Of a DNA stretch of 33,183 nt, positions 3,635 through 14,266 are shown in pieces (positions within the stretch are counted from its first letter, which is position 1; the number at the start of each line of letters is the position of its first letter). Source of the stretch: Dysosmobacter sp. (GTDB taxonomy: Bacteria; Bacillota; Clostridia; Oscillospirales; Oscillospiraceae). The position numbers and the translations under genes were made by a program. The DNA is taken from the NCBI GenBank assembly GCA_022778785.1, contig JALFSO010000049.1, positions 1-33,183 of the forward strand. The letters run 5' to 3'. The notes below the pieces were generated by a model. That model did no database searches. It was given only the letters and a program-made list of their open reading frames with translations, and was not told the DNA's origin.

Positions 3635-3664
3635 ATTGTAATACAATCCAGCGCCTTCGGTCAA
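3635..3664 (-). promoter_or_regulatory. Sigma-A-type promoter of the AIM24-family gene
   Basis: On the minus strand a TTGACC -35 box (3659-3664) is followed after 18 bases by a TACAAT -10 box (3635-3640). The start of transcription would be near 3628, giving a leader of about 45 bases that contains a small CCCCGG/CCGGGG hairpin before the ribosome binding site. Confidence 0.7.
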
Positions 3665-3692
3665 TTCCATCGCCGCTTTTTGTCCGGAAAGT

Positions 3693-4376
3693 TCAGGCGG
3701 GAGAGGCGCCCCTGCCCCACATCAGCACAAAGGCCGCCGACTGAAGAGCCGCCGCCCCCAGCACCGCCCGCTGAGGGGCGGGACCGGTGAGGAACGCGCC
3801 CAGGGCGGCACCGGCGATGAAGCAGCCGATGATGCCGTAATAGCACAGCGCCTTCTCCAGAGCCGTCCGGTCCCGGCGGACCAGACCATGGTACAGAGCC
3901 TCCGTGCCGCTGCGGAGATTGCCGGTGCACATGGTGGAGGCGAAGGCGTTGCCCCGGACCTTCCGGAAGGTCTCCACCTGCAGGGCGCAGACGAAGGCCA
4001 CCATCGCGTTGGACGGCATGTCCCAACTGCCCAGCGGCAGGAACGCTACAACACAAATGACGGCGATCTCCGCCAGCAGGATGGTGTGGCGCCAGTGATA
4101 CCGGCCGCTGTTGGGATGGCGGTCCCGGATGAGCTCCGCCGCCAGCACGCCGGCGGCAAAGGCCAGGATGGGAAGCAGATACGTACCGGCCGCCCGCCAC
4201 TGGCCTCGGGCCAGATGAAGGCCCAGCAGGACGATGTTGCCGGTCTCGGCGTTGGCGAACACGCCGCCTCTGCTGAGATAGGTGTAGGCGTCCAGCAGGC
4301 CGCCTGCCGCCGCCAGCAGTGCACTCACCAGAAAGGATTCGGATCTCTGAAACTGCTTTTTCGGAAGATGCTCCAC
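3693..4376 (-). CDS. DUF1275 / YoaK family membrane protein
   Basis: This 227-residue polytopic membrane protein belongs to the DUF1275 (YoaK-like) family. Family features seen are the N-terminal GGLLDAYTYLSRGGVFANAETGN segment, a central ALQVETFRKVRGNAFASTMCTGNLR motif and about six hydrophobic segments. The family has no established function and is usually annotated as a possible transporter. The start is a GTG at 4376 with AAGGAG 10 bases upstream; no better ATG is near. Its promoter lies at 4470-4498 and its leader carries a stable hairpin. It is separated from carB by that promoter and is not obviously linked to pyrimidine synthesis. Confidence 0.88.
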   Translation of the reverse strand: MEHLPKKQFQRSESFLVSALLAAAGGLLDAYTYLSRGGVFANAETGNIVLLGLHLARGQWRAAGTYLLPILAFAAGVLAAELIRDRHPNSGRYHWRHTILLAEIAVICVVAFLPLGSWDMPSNAMVAFVCALQVETFRKVRGNAFASTMCTGNLRSGTEALYHGLVRRDRTALEKALCYYGIIGCFIAGAALGAFLTGPAPQRAVLGAAALQSAAFVLMWGRGASPA

Positions 4377-4411
4377 AGGATGTGCGCTCCTTTTTCAAAA
4401 TTCCGTGAAGA

Positions 4412-4525: not shown

Positions 4526-7500
4526 TCAGTACTCGGTGATGCCCTCGTAGACCAGCTTGGCGCCGCCCACCAGCAGGACCGTGTCGTCGGTGTAATTCAC
4601 CACCAGGTCGCCGCCGCCGGTCTTGACGGTGATGTCCCGGCCCTTTTCACACTGGCCTGTGGCCACGGCGGCCACCACCGCCGCGCAGGCGCCGGAGCCG
4701 CAGGACAGCGTCTCGCCGCTGCCCCGCTCCCAGGTGCGCAGCTTGATGGTGCTGGGATTTACCACCCGGACGAACTCCGTGTTGATGCGCTCCGGGAAGT
4801 AGTCCGCGAACTCGAACTGGGGACCCACGGTGTTCAGATCCACGGCGTCCACCCGGGGACAGAACACCACGCAGTGGGGGTTGCCGATGTCCACGCAGGT
4901 GACGGCGTACTCCTGTCCGCCCACGGTCAGCGGGTAGTTGACGGCCTCCTTCACCGGGAGGTTCAGACGGAGAGCGGAGAGGTCCAGGGAGGCCTTGCCC
5001 ATGTCCACACAGGCGGAGGTGACCTTGCCGTTGGTGGTGTAGAGGGTGACGGTCTTCACGCCCCGGTCCGTCTCGATGGTGATGGTCTCCTTGTGGACGA
5101 TGTTCTTGTCGTAGAGGTACTTCACAATGCAGGACAGGGCGTTGCCCGCCACCGGGCTCTCGGAGCCGTCGGCGTTGAACATCCGCATCCGGATGCCCGC
5201 CGTCTCAGAGGGCTCCATGAGGATGATGCCGTCGGCGCCGATGCCGTAGTGCCGGTCGCAGAACAGGATGCACAGGGACTCCGGGCAGGTGATCTCGCCG
5301 TGGAAGTTCTCCAGAAGGATGTAGTCGTTGCCGCTGGCCTGGATCTTGGAGAAGGGGAGCTTCTGATGCTCCGTCCGAAGGTGGCAGATGTCCACCAGTT
5401 CCGTGTTGTTCTGGTTGTACCGGGAGGCCAGAATGTCCGCCAGGGCGCCGGCGGTGTCCAGAGAGGTGAGGCAGGGGATGCCCAGCTGGACGCAGCGGTG
5501 GTTCAGGTGGATGAAGTCCCGGATGTAGTTGGGCTCCGTGGAGCCAGTGAGGATGACGTAGTCGATCTTTCCGTCCTCCAGCAGCTGGAAGACCCGGCTG
5601 TCCCGGCCCAGCTTGCCCACCACCTCCACGGTGGTGCCCAGACGGGAGATCTCCTTGGCGGTGCCGTCGGTGGCGTAGAGCTTGTAGCCCATGTCGTCCA
5701 GCTTCCGGGCGATGCCCACGATCTCCGGCTGGTCCCGGCGGTTGACAGAGATCAGCACGCCGCCCCGGACAGGCTTTTCCACGTGATAGCCCGCGGAGAG
5801 CAGTCCCTTGAACAGGGCCTCGTGGAGATTCTTGCCCAGGCCCAGCACCTCGCCGGTGGACTTCATCTCAGGGGACAGAGCGGCGTTGGCGTCGGTGATC
5901 TTCTCAAAGGAGAACACGGGGACCTTCACCGCCACGTAGGGAGGCTGCCGGTACAGACCGGTGCCGTAGCCCAGGGACTTCAGGGGCTGGCCGATCATGA
6001 CACGGGTGGCCAGATCCACCATGGGCACGCCGGTGACCTTGGAGATGTAGGGCACCGTCCGGGAGGCCCGGGGATTCACCTCGATGACATACAGCTCGCC
6101 CTGATAGATCAGGTACTGGATGTTGATGAGGCCCCGGGTCTTCAGGGAGAGGGCCAGCTTCTCGGAGCAATCGATGATGGTGTGGAGCATCTTGTCGCCG
6201 ATGGAGAAGGGGGGATAGACGGCGATGGAGTCGCCGGAGTGGACGCCGGTGCGCTCGATGTGCTGCATGATGCCGGGGATCAGCACGTCCGCGCCGTCGG
6301 AGATGACGTCCACCTCCAGCTCCGTGCCCATGAGGTACTGGTCCACCAGCACCGGGTTCTCGATCTTGCCGGAGAGGATGATGTCCATGTACCGGCGGAC
6401 CTCGCCGTCGTTGTGGGCGATGACCATGTTCTGTCCGCCGATGACGTAGGAGGGGCGCAGCAGCACGGGATAGCCCAGCTCATGGGCCGCCGCCAGGGCT
6501 TCGTCCAGGCCCAGCACGCCACGGCCCGCGGCCCGCTTGATGTGGAACCGCTCCAGCAGCTCGTCGAACCGCTCCCGGTCCTCCGCCATGTCGATGGACT
6601 CGGCGGAGGTGCCCATGATGCGGATGCCACGGCTGTCCAGGAACTTGGTGAGCTTGATGGCCGTTTGGCCGCCGAAGGCCACCACCACGCCCATGGGCTT
6701 CTCCACCTCGATAATGTGCATGACGTCCTCCGGGCAGAGGGGCTCGAAGTACAGGCGGTCGGCGGTGTCGTAGTCCGTGGAGACGGTCTCCGGGTTGTTG
6801 TTGACGATGACCACCTCATAGCCCAGCTGCTTCAGCGTCCAGACGCAGTGGACGGAGGAGTAGTCGAACTCAATGCCCTGGCCGATGCGGATGGGGCCGG
6901 AGCCCAGCACCATAATGACGGGCTTTCTGGACCGGGGGAAGGTCCGGGACTCGCAGAAGCGGTCGAAGGTGGAGTAGAAGTAGGGGGTCTCCGCGTCAAA
7001 CTCCGCGGCGCAGGTGTCCACCATCTTGTAGACGGCGGCCTTGCTCTCACAGGGCAGCGCCTGAGCGCCGGAGAGCCGCAGCAGGGCGCTGTCGGGATAG
7101 CCGAACTGCTTGCCCTGTTCATAGAGCTCCGCCGTCAGGCCCTCCCGCTCCAGCGTCTGCTCAAAGTCCGCCAGACGCCGGATGTGGCTGAGGAACCAGT
7201 GGTCGATCTTCGTGATGTCATGGATGGTATCCAGGGACACGCCGGACTTCATGGCCTCAAAGATGGTGAACAGCCGGTGGTCGTCTACCCGGCGGAGCCG
7301 CTCCTCAATGGGGGCGGTGTCGTCCTCGTCGGGCTTGCGGTTCAGGGTGTCCATGCCGATCTCCGCGCCCCGGACGGCCTTCATCAGGGCCATCTCGAAG
7401 TTGGGGGCGATGGACATGACCTCGCCGGTGGCCTTCATCTGGGTACCCAGGGTCCGGGAGGCGTCGGCGAACTTGTCGAAGGGCCACTTGGGCATCTTCA

Positions 7501-8563
7501 CCACGATGTAGTCCAGCGCAGGCTCGAAGCAGGCGCAGGTCTTGCCGGTGATGTCGTTTTTGATCTCGTCCAGGGTGTAGCCCAGGGCGATTTTGGCGGT
7601 GATCTTGGCGATGGGATAGCCGGTGGCCTTTGAAGCCAGGGCGGAGGAGCGGGAGACTCTGGGGTTCACCTCAATGACGGCGTACTCGAAGCTGTCGGGA
7701 TTCAGGGCCAGCTGGCAGTTGCAGCCGCCCACGATGCCCAGATGGGTGATGATGTCCAGGGAGGCCTTCCGCAGCATCTGGAACTCCTTGTCGGACAGGG
7801 TCTGGGTGGGGGCCACCACGATGGAGTCGCCGGTGTGGACGCCCACCGGGTCCAGATTCTCCATGGAGCAGACGGCGATGACGTTGCCCGCACTGTCCCG
7901 CATGGTCTCGAACTCGATCTCTTTCCAGCCGAAGATGGCCTTTTCAATGAGTACCTGGGTGATGGGTGAGGCGTCCAGACCCGTCTGGGCGATGATGCGC
8001 AGCTCATCGGCGTCCTTGGCCGCGCCGCCGCCGGCGCCGCCAAGGGTAAAGGCGGGACGGACGATGACGGGATAGCCGATGCGGTCCGCCGCGGCCAGGG
8101 CGTCCTCCACAGTCTCAGCGATGTCCGAGGCGATGACGGGCTGGCCGATCTCGGCCATGGCCTCCTTGAACAGTTCCCGGTCCTCCGCCCGGGAGATGGC
8201 CGCGGCGTCGGTGCCCAGCAGGCGGACGCCCTGTTCCTTCAGGAAGCCCTCTTTGTCCAGCTGCATGGCCAGCGTCAGGCCGGTCTGGCCGCCCAGGCCC
8301 GCCAGAATGGAGTCGGGCTTCTCCTTTTTGATGATGCGCTTGATGGTATCCGCCGTCAGAGGCTCCAGATAGATCTCGTCCGCCATGGCCTGATCGGTCA
8401 TGATGGTGGCGGGGTTGGAGTTGCACAGCACCACGTTGACCCCGGCCTCTTTCAGGACCCGGCAGGCCTGGGCACCGGCGTAGTCGAACTCCGCGGCCTG
8501 GCCGATGACGATGGGGCCGGAGCCGATGACGAGGACTTTCTTGATACTGGTATCGAGAGGCAT
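4526..8563 (-). CDS. carB: Carbamoyl-phosphate synthase large subunit fused to a DapF-like epimerase domain
   Basis: The 1345-residue protein starts as a full CarB. Two ATP-grasp halves make carbamoyl phosphate from bicarbonate, ammonia and ATP for arginine and pyrimidine synthesis. The paired openings VLVIGSGPIVIGQAAEFDY and IMVLGSGPIRIGQGIEFDY, and an MGS-like domain ending near residue 1055, are clear. Instead of stopping at about 1070 residues, the frame continues through a short linker into a complete diaminopimelate epimerase-like domain (about 1069-1345; PFSKIQASGNDYI, RHYGIGADGIIL, GNPHCVVF, ERGSGETLSCGSGACAA). DapF converts LL- to meso-diaminopimelate for lysine and peptidoglycan. 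Its second catalytic Cys is present (residue 1288). The first lies in the usual CGN motif but here reads AGN (Ala1139), and the conserved Arg of that motif is Ser1144. No internal start with a ribosome binding site precedes the domain. The carB start overlaps the carA stop (TAATG). Confidence 0.95.
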   Translation of the reverse strand: MPLDTSIKKVLVIGSGPIVIGQAAEFDYAGAQACRVLKEAGVNVVLCNSNPATIMTDQAMADEIYLEPLTADTIKRIIKKEKPDSILAGLGGQTGLTLAMQLDKEGFLKEQGVRLLGTDAAAISRAEDRELFKEAMAEIGQPVIASDIAETVEDALAAADRIGYPVIVRPAFTLGGAGGGAAKDADELRIIAQTGLDASPITQVLIEKAIFGWKEIEFETMRDSAGNVIAVCSMENLDPVGVHTGDSIVVAPTQTLSDKEFQMLRKASLDIITHLGIVGGCNCQLALNPDSFEYAVIEVNPRVSRSSALASKATGYPIAKITAKIALGYTLDEIKNDITGKTCACFEPALDYIVVKMPKWPFDKFADASRTLGTQMKATGEVMSIAPNFEMALMKAVRGAEIGMDTLNRKPDEDDTAPIEERLRRVDDHRLFTIFEAMKSGVSLDTIHDITKIDHWFLSHIRRLADFEQTLEREGLTAELYEQGKQFGYPDSALLRLSGAQALPCESKAAVYKMVDTCAAEFDAETPYFYSTFDRFCESRTFPRSRKPVIMVLGSGPIRIGQGIEFDYSSVHCVWTLKQLGYEVVIVNNNPETVSTDYDTADRLYFEPLCPEDVMHIIEVEKPMGVVVAFGGQTAIKLTKFLDSRGIRIMGTSAESIDMAEDRERFDELLERFHIKRAAGRGVLGLDEALAAAHELGYPVLLRPSYVIGGQNMVIAHNDGEVRRYMDIILSGKIENPVLVDQYLMGTELEVDVISDGADVLIPGIMQHIERTGVHSGDSIAVYPPFSIGDKMLHTIIDCSEKLALSLKTRGLINIQYLIYQGELYVIEVNPRASRTVPYISKVTGVPMVDLATRVMIGQPLKSLGYGTGLYRQPPYVAVKVPVFSFEKITDANAALSPEMKSTGEVLGLGKNLHEALFKGLLSAGYHVEKPVRGGVLISVNRRDQPEIVGIARKLDDMGYKLYATDGTAKEISRLGTTVEVVGKLGRDSRVFQLLEDGKIDYVILTGSTEPNYIRDFIHLNHRCVQLGIPCLTSLDTAGALADILASRYNQNNTELVDICHLRTEHQKLPFSKIQASGNDYILLENFHGEITCPESLCILFCDRHYGIGADGIILMEPSETAGIRMRMFNADGSESPVAGNALSCIVKYLYDKNIVHKETITIETDRGVKTVTLYTTNGKVTSACVDMGKASLDLSALRLNLPVKEAVNYPLTVGGQEYAVTCVDIGNPHCVVFCPRVDAVDLNTVGPQFEFADYFPERINTEFVRVVNPSTIKLRTWERGSGETLSCGSGACAAVVAAVATGQCEKGRDITVKTGGGDLVVNYTDDTVLLVGGAKLVYEGITEY

Positions 8564-9627
8564 TACCGGTCACCACCTTTCATCATTTCCACAAACCGGT
8601 CAAACAGGAAGCCGGTGTCCTTGGGGCCGGAGCAGGCCTCCGGATGGAACTGCACCGTAAAGGCGTTCCACTCCGGATAGTCAATGCCCTCGCAGGTGCC
8701 GTCGTTGGCGTTGATGTAGCGCACCTTGCCGGTCTTCAGACTGTTTCCGTCCACGGCGTAGCCGTGGTTCTGGCTGGTGATGTAGGTCCGGCGGCCCTCC
8801 AGATCCCGGACGGGCTGGTTGACACCCCGGTGGCCGTACTTCAGCTTGTAGGTGCTGCCGCCGGCGGCCAGCGCCGTCAGCTGATGGCCCAGACAGATGC
8901 CGAACAGGGGGACCTTGCCCAGAAGGTTTTTGATCTGTTCGATCTCAAAGGTATTCTCGGAGGGGTCGCCGGGGCCGTTGGACAGCATGACGCCGTCGGG
9001 GTGTCCGGCCAGGACCTCCTCCGCGGAGACGGAGGCGGGCAGCACCGTGACCGTGCAGCCCCGCTGCTGAAGGCTGCGGATAATGTTCCGCTTGGCGCCG
9101 TAGTCGATGAGGGAGACCCGGTATTTCTCCACGCCCTCCGCCGGATGGACGCTGGGGGCCGGACTGGTGACCGCCCGTACCACGCCCTGGACGGCGTACA
9201 GCTTGATGGGAGTCAGGTCCGCGGGGATCTCACTGCAGATGGATGCGTTCATAACGCCGTGCTCCCGCAGAATGCGGGTCAGCTCCCGGGTGTCCACGCC
9301 GTACAGGCCCGGCACGTTCCGCTCCTTCAGGAAGGTGTCCAGATCGTACTGCGCGCGGAAATTGGAGGGGCTCCCGCACCACTCCCGGACCACATAGCCC
9401 CGGACGGCGCAGTTCCCCTCGAAGTCCTCTTCCATGATGCCGTAATTGCCGATCAGCGGATAGGTCTGCAAAACGATCTGTCCGGCGTAGCTGGGGTCGG
9501 TCAGCGTCTCGATGTAGCCGCACATGCCGGTGGTGAATACCAGCTCGCCCACGGTGTCCGACATGGCGCCGAACCGGCAACCCTCAAACACCTGGCCGTC
9601 CTCCAGCACCAAATATGCCTTTTCCAT
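8563..9627 (-). CDS. carA: Carbamoyl-phosphate synthase small (glutaminase) subunit
   Basis: CarA hydrolyses glutamine and passes the ammonia to CarB. The 354-residue protein has the CarA-specific N-terminal domain (AYLVLEDGQVFEG, ELVFTTGMCGYIETLTDPSY) and a class I glutamine amidotransferase domain. That domain carries the nucleophile Cys245 in GICLGHQ and the catalytic His in FHPEA. Length is normal. TAGGAGAG precedes the start. The stop codon overlaps the carB start by one base, and a GGTGGTGA ribosome binding site for carB lies within the last carA codons, so the two subunits are translationally coupled. Expression probably responds to arginine through the operator-like site next to its promoter. 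Confidence 0.97.
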   Translation of the reverse strand: MEKAYLVLEDGQVFEGCRFGAMSDTVGELVFTTGMCGYIETLTDPSYAGQIVLQTYPLIGNYGIMEEDFEGNCAVRGYVVREWCGSPSNFRAQYDLDTFLKERNVPGLYGVDTRELTRILREHGVMNASICSEIPADLTPIKLYAVQGVVRAVTSPAPSVHPAEGVEKYRVSLIDYGAKRNIIRSLQQRGCTVTVLPASVSAEEVLAGHPDGVMLSNGPGDPSENTFEIEQIKNLLGKVPLFGICLGHQLTALAAGGSTYKLKYGHRGVNQPVRDLEGRRTYITSQNHGYAVDGNSLKTGKVRYINANDGTCEGIDYPEWNAFTVQFHPEACSGPKDTGFLFDRFVEMMKGGDR

Positions 9628-9917: not shown

Positions 9918-11093
9918 ATGCAGTATCGAATGGGAAAACACGGTGAGCAGATCTCTCTGCTGGGTTACGGCTGTATGCGGTTCACCCGCAGCGGCGGCGG
10001 GATCGATCTGGACAAGGCGGAGCGGGAGCTGATGGCGGCCATCGACGCCGGTGTGAACTATCTGGACACCGCCTATATCTATCCCGGCAGCGAGGCGGCG
10101 GTGGGCGAGATCCTGCGGCGGAACCAGTGCCGGGACCGTGTGCTGATCGCCACCAAGCTGCCCCAGTATCTCATCCGCTCCCGGAAGGGCATCGACCGTT
10201 GCTTCGACGAGGAACTGAAGCGGCTGTGCACCGACCATGTGGACTTCTACCTCATGCATATGCTGGCGGACGTCAGTGCCTGGGAGAAGCTGCGGAGCTT
10301 CGGCATCGAGGAGTGGATCGCGGAGAAGAAGGCGTCGGGCCAGATCCGGAATATCGGCTTCTCCTTCCACGGCGGCACCGCCGCCTTTCTGGAGGTGCTG
10401 AACGCCTACGACTGGGACTTCTGCCAGATCCAGTACAACTATATGGACGAGACCACCCAGGCGGGCCGCAGGGGACTGGAGACGGCGGCCGCCCGGGGTA
10501 TCCCCGTCATCATCATGGAGCCCCTTCGGGGCGGACGGCTGGCCAATCAGCTGCCTCCGGCGGCAAAGGAACTGCTGGAGAAAGAGGGAAAGGGCCGCTC
10601 CGCCGCCGAGTGGGGACTGCGGTGGCTGTGGGACCAGCCCGGCGTCACCTGCGTCCTGTCGGGCATGAACTCCCTGGAGATGGTGGCGGAAAACTGCCGT
10701 ATCGCCTCGGAGGCCCGGGCCGGGGAGTTCACGGAGGAGGACCGGGCCCTCATTGCCGGACTGAAGCGGGAGATCAGCGGGGCCCTGCGGGTGGGCTGCA
10801 CCGGCTGCGGCTACTGCCAGCCCTGCCCCAGGGGCGTGGACATCCCCGGCGTATTCCGGTGCTGGAATGAGGTAGGCATCGATGGAAAGGGCAAGGCCCG
10901 CCGGGAGTATATGCAGACCACCGCCATGCGGCGGCAGTCCACCGGCGTCCGGCACTGCGTGGGCTGCGGTAAGTGCGAGCAGCACTGTCCCCAACATCTG
11001 GACATCCGGAAGGAGCTGAAGCGGGCCGCGGCGGAGCTGGAGACACCTGCCTACCGCATCGTGGAGCAGGCCTACCGTCTGCTGAAGATCTGA
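9918..11093 (+). CDS. Aldo/keto reductase with C-terminal ferredoxin-type iron-sulfur domain
   Basis: The 391-residue protein begins with an aldo/keto reductase barrel. The expected catalytic set is visible as Asp50, Tyr55 (in DTAYIYPGSE), Lys80 (ATKLP) and His112 (FYLMH). Its C-terminal part carries cysteine clusters of a bis-4Fe-4S ferredoxin-like domain: CTGCGYCQPCP from residue 294 and CVGCGKCEQHCP from residue 347. This matches the COG1453 group of predicted oxidoreductases, common in anaerobes. The substrate is unknown. The iron-sulfur tail suggests electron exchange with ferredoxin-like carriers as well as, or instead of, NADPH. GAGGAG precedes the start. The Sel1-repeat gene starts 17 bases after the stop, so the two probably share the upstream promoter. 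Confidence 0.93.
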   Translation: MQYRMGKHGEQISLLGYGCMRFTRSGGGIDLDKAERELMAAIDAGVNYLDTAYIYPGSEAAVGEILRRNQCRDRVLIATKLPQYLIRSRKGIDRCFDEELKRLCTDHVDFYLMHMLADVSAWEKLRSFGIEEWIAEKKASGQIRNIGFSFHGGTAAFLEVLNAYDWDFCQIQYNYMDETTQAGRRGLETAAARGIPVIIMEPLRGGRLANQLPPAAKELLEKEGKGRSAAEWGLRWLWDQPGVTCVLSGMNSLEMVAENCRIASEARAGEFTEEDRALIAGLKREISGALRVGCTGCGYCQPCPRGVDIPGVFRCWNEVGIDGKGKARREYMQTTAMRRQSTGVRHCVGCGKCEQHCPQHLDIRKELKRAAAELETPAYRIVEQAYRLLKI

Positions 11094-11110
11094 TCCTACG
11101 GAGGAGACAC

Positions 11111-14100
11111 ATGGCTGACAACGAAAACGGCAGGGAGCCGCTCCGGGAGGACGGCTCCCAGGAGATCATCTATATCAATCCGGAGTTCTTGAAAAGCGCC
11201 GCGGCGTCCCTGCATCAGAAGCAGGAAGATCTCCACAATCTCATGGCCGCCGCGGAGGACGGCGATCTGGAGGCCCAGGAGCGGCTGGCTGCCTGCTATA
11301 TGGAGGGCTCTCAGGGCGCACCGAAGGATGAGCGGAAGGGCGCCTACTGGTTTCAGCAGGCCGCCCAGGGCGGCAGCATCAACGCCCAACTGAATCTGGG
11401 CGTGTGCTATGAGCGGGGCGTCGGCGTGGAGCGGGACCCCCATCGGGCGGCGGAGCTCTATCAGGAGGCGGCGGACGCCGGCTTTCCGCCGGCCCAGTGC
11501 GCCCTGGGCCTTTGCTATGAGTTGGGCAGCGGCGTCCCGCTGGACAAGGAGCGGGCGGCGGAGCTGTACACCCTGGCGGCGGAGCAGGGCTACGCGCCGG
11601 CCCAGTGCAATCTGGGCTTCTTCTATTATCACGGCATCGCCGTGGAGGAGGACGACGTCCAGGCAGTGTCCTGGTTTGAAAAGGCGGCGGAGCAGGACTT
11701 TTCCCGGGCGCTGTTCCTGCTGGGCGAGTGCTATGAGCACGGCTACGGCGTGCCCAAAGACTGGGGCCGGATGCTGGCGCTGTACCGCCGGGCGGCGGAG
11801 CAGGGCTTTGTTCCGGCCCAGTGTTCCCTGGGCTACTGCTATTACCGGGGCAACGGCGTGGGGGAGGACAACGCTCAGGCGCTGCAATGGTTCCTGAAGG
11901 CGGCGGAAAAGGGGTATCCCCGCGCCCAGTATCTGGCCGGTCAGTGCTATGACTACGGCTACGGCACGGAGGAGGACCTGGAGAAGGCGCTCCGGCTCTA
12001 CCGGGCCGCGGCGGAGCAGGACTATCCCCCAGCCCAGTGCGCCCTGGGACTGTGCTATGAGCTGGGCAAGGGCACTGCGGAGGACAAGGAGACGGCGGCG
12101 CGGCTGTATCGTCTGGCGGCAGAACAGGGCTACGCTCCGGCCCTGTGCAACCTGGGTTTTTTCTACTACCACGGCATCACTGTGGAGGAGGACGACCGGC
12201 AGGCCCTGGCGCTGTTTTTAAAGGCGGCGGAGCAGGGCTACGCCCGGGCCCAGTTCCTGGCGGGGGAGTGCCTTCAGTACGGCTACGGCGCGGAGAAGGA
12301 CCTGGAACGGGCGGTGGTCCTCTACCAGAAATCGGCGGAGCAGGGCCATCCCGGCGGCCAGTGCGCCCTGGGGCTGTGCTATGAGCTGGGCGAGGGAGTC
12401 CCGGAGGACAAGGCGGAGGCGGCGCGGCTGTATCGTCTGGCGGCAGAACAGGGCCACGCTCCGGCTCAGTGCAATCTGGGCTTCTTCTACTATCGGGGCA
12501 TCGCCGTGGAGGAGGATGACCGGCAGGCGTTCCAATGGTTCTCCAGGGCGGCGGAGCAGGACTATCCCCGGGCACAGTTCCTGGCCGGACAGTGCTGGGA
12601 GAACGGCTGCGGCACGGAGCGGAACATGGGAAAGGCCGCAGAGCTGTATCGCGCCGCGGCGGAGCGGGAGTATCCCGACGGACAGTGTGCCCTGGGGCTG
12701 TGCTATGAACTGGGCGAAGGCGTGCCGGAGGACAAGGCGGAGGCGGCGCGGCTGTACCGCCTGGCGGCGGAACAGGGACTGGCCCGGGCCCAGTGCAACC
12801 TGGGCTTCTTCTGTTATCACGGCATTGGCGTTCCGGAGGACAATGCGCAGGCCTTTCGGTGGTTCTCCAAGGCGGCGGACCAGGGCTACGCCAGAGGCCA
12901 GTATTTCGTGGGCGAGTGCTACGAGTACGGCTACGGCGTGGAGAGCGATCCGGAGAAGGCCGTGGAATTCTACGGTCAGGCCGCTGAACAGGAATATCCG
13001 GACGGACAGTGCGCCCTGGGGCTGTGCTATGAGCTGGGCAAGGGCGTACCGGAGGACAAGGCGGAGGCGGCGCGGCTGTACCGTCAGGCGGCGGAGCAGG
13101 GGCTGGCCCGTGCCCAATGCAATCTGGGCTTCTTCTGCCTGAACGGCATCGCTGTGGAGGAGGACGAGAAGCAGGCTTTGGAGTGGTTCCTGAAGGCGGC
13201 GGAGCAGGGCCATGCCCGGGCACAGAGTCTGGCGGGCGAGTGCTATGACTACGGCTACGGCACGGAGAAGGATCCGGAAAAGGCAGCGGACTTCTATCGC
13301 GCCGCGGCGGACCAGGACTATGCCCCGGCCATCTGCAACCTGGGCTTGTGCTACGAGCTGGGGAAAGGCGTGGCGGAGGACAAGGCGGAGGCGGCGCGGC
13401 TGTACCGTCAGGCGGCGGACATGGGCTACGCCCGTGCCCAGTGCAATCTGGGCTTCCTCTACTACCACGGCAGCGGCGTGGAGGAAAACAACGACCTGGC
13501 CTTTGACTGGTTCTCCCGGGCCGCAGCCAACGGGCAGGCCAGAGGACAGTATTTCGTGGGAGAGTGCTATCAGTACGGCTACGGCGTGAAAAAGGACCCG
13601 GCCCGGGCCGTAGAGTTCTACCGCCAGGCCGCCGGACAGGGCTATGCCTCCGCGCTGTACAAGCTGGGTGTCTGCTGCTACGAGGGCATCGGGATGCCGA
13701 GGGACTATCAGAAGGCCGTGGAATACTACCGTCAGGCGGCGGACAAGGGCCTCGCGTCCGCCCAGTGCAACCTGGGCTACTTCTATTACATGGGCTACGG
13801 CGTGGAGCAGGACTACGACCAGGCGTTCCGCCTGTACTGTCAGGCGGCAGACCAGGGAAACGTGGTGGGCATCAACAATATGGCGGACTGCTATGAACAC
13901 GGCTACGGCGTGGAGCAGGACCTGAAAAAAGCCGTGGAGCTGTACCGTCAGGCGGCGGACCGGGGGAATCCCACCGCCATGGAGAGCCTGGGCTGTATGT
14001 ACGAGGAGGGCCGGGGCGTGCCCCAGGATCCGGTAAAGGCCGTGGAGCTGTACCGTCAGGCCGCCGATGCGGGGAACCACATGGGTGAGTACCGTCTGGG

Positions 14101-14266
14101 CCGGTGCTACGAACAGGGCACCGGCGTGCGGAAGGACCGCCACCGGGCCATGGAGCTGTACCGACAGGCCTCCGCCGGCGGCTGCAAGGAGGCCGGAGAG
14201 GCCCTGAAACGGCTGCGGGCCGGCGGGCACGGACACGGCCTGCTGGGCTGGCTGAGGGGAAAGTGA
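11111..14266 (+). CDS. Large Sel1-like repeat (SLR/TPR-type) protein
   Basis: The 1051-residue protein is almost entirely Sel1-like repeats of 36 residues; I count about 27. Each follows the pattern AxxxLGxCYxxGxGVxxDxxxAxxxYxxAAxxG. These helical-hairpin repeats build superhelical scaffolds for protein binding. There is no signal peptide or membrane segment, so a cytoplasmic scaffold is likely. About 50 non-repeat residues precede the first repeat and a short basic, Gly/His-rich tail follows the last. The start at 11111 has GGAGGAG just upstream; an in-frame ATG at 10973 lies inside the reductase gene. Unusually, repeats 7-21 fall into a three-repeat super-unit. No partner can be deduced beyond the neighbouring reductase. 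Confidence 0.93.
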   Translation: MADNENGREPLREDGSQEIIYINPEFLKSAAASLHQKQEDLHNLMAAAEDGDLEAQERLAACYMEGSQGAPKDERKGAYWFQQAAQGGSINAQLNLGVCYERGVGVERDPHRAAELYQEAADAGFPPAQCALGLCYELGSGVPLDKERAAELYTLAAEQGYAPAQCNLGFFYYHGIAVEEDDVQAVSWFEKAAEQDFSRALFLLGECYEHGYGVPKDWGRMLALYRRAAEQGFVPAQCSLGYCYYRGNGVGEDNAQALQWFLKAAEKGYPRAQYLAGQCYDYGYGTEEDLEKALRLYRAAAEQDYPPAQCALGLCYELGKGTAEDKETAARLYRLAAEQGYAPALCNLGFFYYHGITVEEDDRQALALFLKAAEQGYARAQFLAGECLQYGYGAEKDLERAVVLYQKSAEQGHPGGQCALGLCYELGEGVPEDKAEAARLYRLAAEQGHAPAQCNLGFFYYRGIAVEEDDRQAFQWFSRAAEQDYPRAQFLAGQCWENGCGTERNMGKAAELYRAAAEREYPDGQCALGLCYELGEGVPEDKAEAARLYRLAAEQGLARAQCNLGFFCYHGIGVPEDNAQAFRWFSKAADQGYARGQYFVGECYEYGYGVESDPEKAVEFYGQAAEQEYPDGQCALGLCYELGKGVPEDKAEAARLYRQAAEQGLARAQCNLGFFCLNGIAVEEDEKQALEWFLKAAEQGHARAQSLAGECYDYGYGTEKDPEKAADFYRAAADQDYAPAICNLGLCYELGKGVAEDKAEAARLYRQAADMGYARAQCNLGFLYYHGSGVEENNDLAFDWFSRAAANGQARGQYFVGECYQYGYGVKKDPARAVEFYRQAAGQGYASALYKLGVCCYEGIGMPRDYQKAVEYYRQAADKGLASAQCNLGYFYYMGYGVEQDYDQAFRLYCQAADQGNVVGINNMADCYEHGYGVEQDLKKAVELYRQAADRGNPTAMESLGCMYEEGRGVPQDPVKAVELYRQAADAGNHMGEYRLGRCYEQGTGVRKDRHRAMELYRQASAGGCKEAGEALKRLRAGGHGHGLLGWLRGK
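12029..13648 (+). repeat. Five tandem copies of a 324-bp (108-residue) super-repeat
   Basis: Sel1 repeats 7-21 read as ABC five times. Type A contains QCALGLCYELG, type B CNLGFFYYHG followed by a WF pair, and type C a GECYxYGYG motif. Equivalent bases recur exactly 324 bases apart, for example the GTGC/GTGT of type A at 12037, 12361 and 12685. An earlier, more diverged ABC set occupies repeats 2-4. Confidence 0.9.

Follow-up and report, generated by a model that had tools for sequence, protein, structure and literature searches.

A diaminopimelate epimerase domain fused to CarB in Dysosmobacter sp. lacks a catalytic cysteine and is probably a former enzyme turned into an integral component, possibly a sensor

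The window analysed here, the whole 33,183-nucleotide stretch of Dysosmobacter sp. contig JALFSO010000049.1 (assembly GCA_022778785.1), carries a carB::dapF gene in which the large subunit of carbamoyl-phosphate synthase (CarB) runs into a diaminopimelate epimerase-like (DapF) domain. An earlier, sequence-only reading had described one uninterrupted frame of 1345 codons, with the DapF part following the MGS-like end of CarB and replacing nothing there, and both points were borne out by reading of the open reading frame (ORF), NCBIfam and Pfam. The frame starts with ATG and its predicted product has a mass of 146.7 kDa. Residues 1-1048 matched NF003671 with 1427.8 bits (cut-off 599), the fused protein matched the CarB family TIGR01369 at full length (1389.7 bits, cut-off 1027), and residues 1071-1343 matched model positions 3-268 of 270 of the DapF family TIGR00652 (255.2 bits, cut-off 114.65), with an intact, full-length fold. 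The MGS domain was placed by Pfam at residues 947-1033, ahead of the DapF domain. The partner gene carA adjoins (NF009475, 446.4 bits, cut-off 221). In the window's genome, which is 95% complete, the fused protein is the one CarB found, two other matches reaching 26.8 and 22.1 bits against the cut-off of 1027.

Between residues 1036 and 1099, the sole ATG, GTG or TTG codon is the GTG of V1057 (window position 5395), with a GGAA just 3 bases 5′ of it, so that there is no good internal start for the DapF part. This agrees with the previous claim that the junction lacks a start codon with a ribosome binding site, and a separate internal DapF start was rejected because the lone GTG is badly placed. 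The chlamydial bifunctional DapF/glutamate racemase (DapF/MurI, NF038284) was likewise rejected as an identity for the protein (107.4 bits, cut-off 350).

Among named public genomes, 324 relatives were confirmed, and the best 80 were kept by a score order biased towards full-length fusions. Every one of these 80 loci has CarB and DapF in one frame, at 67-86% identity, and they include isolates such as Oscillibacter valericigenes Sjm18-20 (AP012044, complete genome) and Gemmiger sp. An120. Residue 1339 or beyond was reached by 79 of the 80 matches, and the remaining one (L075) ends with its contig. Since the same frame is present in every kept locus, an assembly error or a missed stop is excluded, and the sequencing error at the junction that the sequence-only reading had named as its possible undoing was not upheld. 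The search for the same architecture that it had proposed revealed conservation well beyond these loci: in evenly drawn samples, at least 68 of 147 order genomes, at least 38 of 245 class genomes and at least 12 of 249 phylum genomes had the fusion, which excludes a fusion confined to the order. One genome (G000) is in all three samples and another (G053) in those of order and class, giving 68 + 36 + 11 = 115 distinct fused genomes.

Catalysis by DapF relies on a thiol/thiolate pair (PMC12039745), formed in the Escherichia coli enzyme by Cys73 and Cys217 (PMC4227774). In the window's fused domain, comparison with DapF places Ala1139 at Cys73 and Cys1288 at Cys217, so two-base epimerisation is not expected. 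The domain matches the DapF profile at full length and above the cut-off, but the earlier description of it as complete is wrong in a decisive respect, the catalytic pair. It has the fold of an enzyme, lacks an essential catalytic residue and has been retained in evolution, as in a pseudoenzyme. We infer that epimerase activity has been lost in this domain.

The loss is widespread among the fused copies. In the order sample both cysteines were present in 14 of the 68 copies and one or both were lost in 53, the copy of G087 being cut by a contig end, which leaves 67 readable. The residue pairs of the 53 were AC (30), GC (10), FC (5), SC (4), CS (2), TS (1) and AN (1), with Cys217 retained in 49. 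The pair was kept in 17 and lost in 19 of the 36 further genomes of the class sample (with G372 judged from its first position only), and kept in five and lost in six of the 11 further genomes of the phylum sample. Altogether, a catalytic cysteine was lost in 78 of the 114 readable fused copies. In the 80 kept public loci, 72 have Ala and eight have Gly at the Cys73 place. Both cysteines were present in all 59 separate DapF proteins that were fetched, a subset comprising 57 from order-sample genomes and two from genomes of the window's genus (G014 and G015). Two single-contig genomes, G619 (L324) and G595 (L325), have fused copies with neither catalytic cysteine (Ser and Ala), and five fused copies (G070, G089, G105, G119 and G145; for example L171 and L182) have Phe at the Cys73 place.

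The window's genome encodes a separate DapF of 296 residues with both cysteines on another contig (L005 6471-7361; G000 contig 76), which excludes the fused domain as the only epimerase of this cell; no match to meso-diaminopimelate (meso-DAP) dehydrogenase was found in this genome. The separate DapF proteins of G000, G014 and G015 belong to a highly diverged type, with a branch of 3.12 in the DapF tree, which suggests replacement through gene transfer. In the order sample, a separate DapF or meso-DAP dehydrogenase was present in 50 of the 53 cysteine-losing genomes vs 9 of the 14 with both cysteines (Fisher p 0.008), the fused domain being the sole source found in five two-cysteine genomes (G037, G062, G099, G169 and G133). 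A pooled Fisher test gave p 0.013, a value that mixes order and class samples. The picture of cysteine loss accompanied by another meso-DAP source is a consistent one, not a proof.

The origin of the fusion can be approached through relatives in which the genes are apart. In L211-L214, carB and dapF are separate genes that share a frame and are parted by one stop, and dapL comes next; the order carA-carB-dapF-dapL is found in L211-L213 and L256, L214 reads carB-dapF-dapL at a contig end, and L255 and L257 have the same genes in other orders. Such unfused clusters, whose neighbours were named by phmmer, are often near purF- or nadE-like genes, and four of the genomes that carry them (G113, G132, G125 and G145) also have a fused copy. 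In the loci with at least 1.2 kb of downstream sequence (some genomes being counted twice), the fused gene has dapL downstream of it in 10 of 33 two-cysteine loci (nine genomes; in two cases nadE comes between) and in none of 115 loci with a lost cysteine. The unfused clusters, with carB and dapF one stop apart, point to a likely origin of the fusion. On a quick DapF tree the fused domains need three label changes and 64 of the 68 fall in one supported group, which argues for one or few fusions. The fused-tail tree places the window in a clade of 32 (support 100/100) with Ala in 30 of its members, and loss of the cysteine pair needs at least four changes under unordered parsimony, or seven clades if it was never regained, some branches being weak. 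As a separate observation, carA-carB, dapF and dapL cluster with the glutamine-using genes purF, nadE and guaA in L211-L214, L255-L257, L127 and L116, a hint that these Clostridia may have a common nitrogen-linked regulon.

Coordinates of carB::dapF, its parts and carA in the window
Feature	Position	Strand	Evidence
carB::dapF, 1345 residues, sole CarB found in the genome	4526..8563	-	ORF, NCBIfam
CarB part, residues 1-1048: two ATP-grasp halves, oligomerisation domain and MGS	5420..8563	-	NF003671, TIGR01369, Pfam
MGS-like allosteric domain, residues 947-1033; the STSxKGR...KIRRKA loop of two-cysteine fused copies is replaced by LTGSTEPNYIRDFIHLNHRC	5465..5725	-	Pfam, pattern comparison
Linker, residues 1049-1070, motif NTELVDI	5354..5419	-	sequence
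DapF-like domain, residues 1071-1343, full-length fold	4535..5353	-	TIGR00652
Ala1139 codon, at the place of catalytic Cys73 (E. coli numbering)	5147..5149	-	comparison with DapF
Cys1288 codon, second catalytic cysteine (Cys217), retained	4700..4702	-	comparison with DapF
carA, carbamoyl-phosphate synthase small subunit, directly upstream of carB::dapF, one-base overlap	8563..9627	-	NF009475

Two other frames of the window were noted. Directly downstream of the fusion, a 245-residue frame (3661-4398, reverse strand) has no Pfam or NCBIfam match and may not be a gene, and a 1097-residue frame (10973-14266, forward strand) gave partial matches to several repeat-type family models, all below cut-off.

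The explanation that we favour, at about even confidence, is that the protein goes back to a bifunctional CarB-DapF in which the epimerase turned into a pseudoenzyme domain. This domain would probably serve carbamoyl-phosphate synthase as a component that either responds to a ligand or has a structural role. A carA-carB-dapF(-dapL) operon, to judge from relatives, would have lost the single in-frame stop between carB and dapF to give a bifunctional protein, and fused copies with both cysteines probably still produce meso-DAP. A catalytic cysteine was lost in the lineage of the window and also, if never regained, in six further clades of the order sample, usually where genes for a separate DapF or meso-DAP dehydrogenase are present. 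The domain stayed joined to CarB, purifying selection acted on it and its ligand pocket was preserved. On our hypothesis, the pseudoenzyme closes on diaminopimelate (DAP) or a close relative without turnover and passes this closure to the MGS domain; such a signal would tune carbamoyl-phosphate synthase, and otherwise the domain would be a fixed structural part.

The pocket residues of DapF, which grip DAP at its two ends, are numbered here N11, N64, G74, N75, N157, N190, E208, R209, G218 and S219. Gln44 is a further DapF position (PMC12039745). In the 53 cysteine-losing copies of the order sample, mean retention was 95% at pocket sites and 93% at 51 other conserved sites, with no difference between the two (p 0.68), and 4% at Cys73. 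In Oscillibacter/Dysosmobacter-like loci, the ratio of nonsynonymous to synonymous substitution rates (dN/dS) of the fused domain had a median of 0.212 over 612 pairs, as calculated by the plain Nei-Gojobori method without codon-bias correction for pairs inside set dS limits. These values point to a fused domain under purifying selection with its ligand pocket retained. DapF closes around its substrate (PMC12039745), and binding of DAP or a near relative without turnover is favoured because the pocket residues are kept in an enzyme that closes in this way. A precedent is the E. coli DapF mutant C73A/C217A, which still binds and stimulates RppH (PMC4227774). DAP binding and regulation by the fused domain are a hypothesis.

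Free DapF enzymes are dimers, and the main rival explanation, possible although on the unlikely side, is that the DapF fold now helps CarB to oligomerise or stabilises it without binding any ligand, as a purely structural passenger. The intact fold and the retention of the domain after cysteine loss in 78 of the 114 readable copies agree with such a role; under it, however, the side chains of the pocket would be expected to change more quickly than the core, and the similar retention of both classes of sites (95% vs 93%) speaks against it.

A bolder form of the favoured explanation, to which we give only tentative and rather low credence, is that the pseudo-DapF is a DAP sensor that sets the rate of carbamoyl-phosphate synthase through the MGS domain and that, in the clade with an altered MGS loop, partly found in argD-argF-carA operons, it replaces nucleotide control. 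Pattern scoring showed that the MGS loop STSxKGR...KIRRKA is lost in all 32 members of the window's clade and in none of the remaining fused copies from the order sample, where this amounts to one change on the fused-tail tree. It is present in every two-cysteine copy (14 in the order, 17 in the class and five in the phylum sample), and absent in 9 of 18 class and 0 of 6 phylum copies with cysteine loss. In E. coli CarB, Thr977 and Lys993 matter for uridine monophosphate (UMP), and Thr1042 belongs to the ornithine site (PMC6245113). All 32 clade members keep Thr977, the position of Thr1042 has Thr in 30 and Ser in two, and Lys993 is kept in seven, the window included, vs 34 of the 36 other fused copies. 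A further position of E. coli CarB is Asn1015. Five members of the clade (L117, L120, L122, L123 and L124) lie in argD-argF-carA-carB::dapF operons. These changes of the loop and of Lys993, together with the operon context, suggest weakened nucleotide control in the window's clade, in part among enzymes tied to arginine, with the DapF pocket preserved. The arginine context is not a general feature of the clade: argF lies upstream in 18 of 30 loci among L079-L115 with at least 2.5 kb of upstream sequence and in none of 39 Oscillibacter/Dysosmobacter-like loci (L036-L078, the window's nearer relatives), and the window frames tested include no arg gene next to carA.

Several observations weigh against the pseudoenzyme explanation. 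Another meso-DAP source was not seen in three of the 53 cysteine-losing order genomes (G041, G064 and G157), and the link between loss and such a source was not significant when evaluated on the tree of the order sample (four independent pairs), nor in the class sample (15/18 vs 13/17, p 0.69), a tally made by eye with G372 left out and with separate DapF taken among the matches listed, so that misses are possible. The pocket is imperfect, N11 being Asp or Ser in 11 of 53 copies, and Phe at the Cys73 place in the five copies mentioned above should crowd or fill the active site. The window's own domain has a median dN/dS of 0.404 (39 pairs) vs 0.212 in the relatives, and a Ser at a site that is Arg in the other 52 of 53 copies; on both counts, constraint on it may be relaxing.

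Three further explanations are improbable. Some members of the proline-racemase superfamily with one cysteine or none carry out one-base-type reactions, and Cys217 alone could support an elimination, an isomerisation or a reaction on another substrate. The retention of Cys217 in 49 of 53 copies fits such a changed enzyme, as do the structures of PhzF and 3-hydroxyproline dehydratase, which have the same fold; however, new chemistry should fix one residue at the Cys73 place, where Ala, Gly, Phe, Ser and Thr are all found, and the second cysteine was lost too or instead in four order and three phylum copies. That the domain is a functionless leftover on its way out is no better founded: the dN/dS of the window copy lies above that of its relatives, but the low relatives' median over 612 pairs and the extension of 79 of the 80 public matches to residue 1339 or further, the last being cut by its contig, argue for maintenance. 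A still working, slower DAP epimerase is the least credible, although the score exceeds the DapF equivalog cut-off, since the genome keeps another DapF with both cysteines and E. coli C73A/C217A does not convert LL-DAP according to PMC4227774, the mutant lacking both cysteines and the window domain one.

The sensing role that the sequence-only reading had proposed for the fused domain remains a good guess, and a coupling of carbamoyl phosphate to cell-wall precursor sensing would fit the kept pocket, the carA-carB-dapF-dapL clusters and the RppH precedent. In many gut Clostridia CarB carries such a passenger; in the window's genome and most relatives examined, where one of its two catalytic cysteines is gone and the binding pocket is preserved, it gives the impression of a former enzyme put to new use as an integral component, perhaps as a sensor. 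Gene fusions and pseudoenzyme regulators are already known; this fusion, with its repeated loss of a cysteine in a domain on carbamoyl-phosphate synthase, would be a further form of them. No description of a CarB-DapF fusion was found among the matches listed in full-text literature searches, some of them weak tests. The relatives form a natural series: carB and dapF as separate genes with one stop between them, a fusion with both cysteines, and a fused domain from which the catalytic cysteine disappeared on several occasions. Since the series concerns a central enzyme without a second copy in the window's genome, it allows a direct test of how an enzyme turns into an allosteric or structural domain. 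The series suggests an unrecognised tie of cell-wall and lysine with arginine and pyrimidine metabolism in gut bacteria, and annotation of the fused domain as diaminopimelate epimerase is probably wrong for most copies examined. A DAP sensor, if true, would be a direct metabolite link between peptidoglycan and lysine supply and arginine and pyrimidine synthesis, made from an operon neighbour turned allosteric domain.

Among known systems, E. coli CarB (NP_414574) has the same order of catalytic, oligomerisation and MGS domains as the fused CarB; it ends after MGS at residue 1073, whereas the window protein continues into DapF. Unlike free-standing DapF (9mro of Anabaena, 3ejx of Arabidopsis), the window domain has Ala for Cys73 and is joined to CarB. 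O-ureidoserine racemase (7vdy) is a racemase, unlike the window's domain, and is not known to occur as a fusion. A likeness in role is offered by the E. coli RppH-DapF complex (6d13; PMC4227774), in which DapF is a non-catalytic partner that alters another enzyme; there DapF is an active enzyme bound non-covalently, whereas the window domain is fused and naturally without Cys73.

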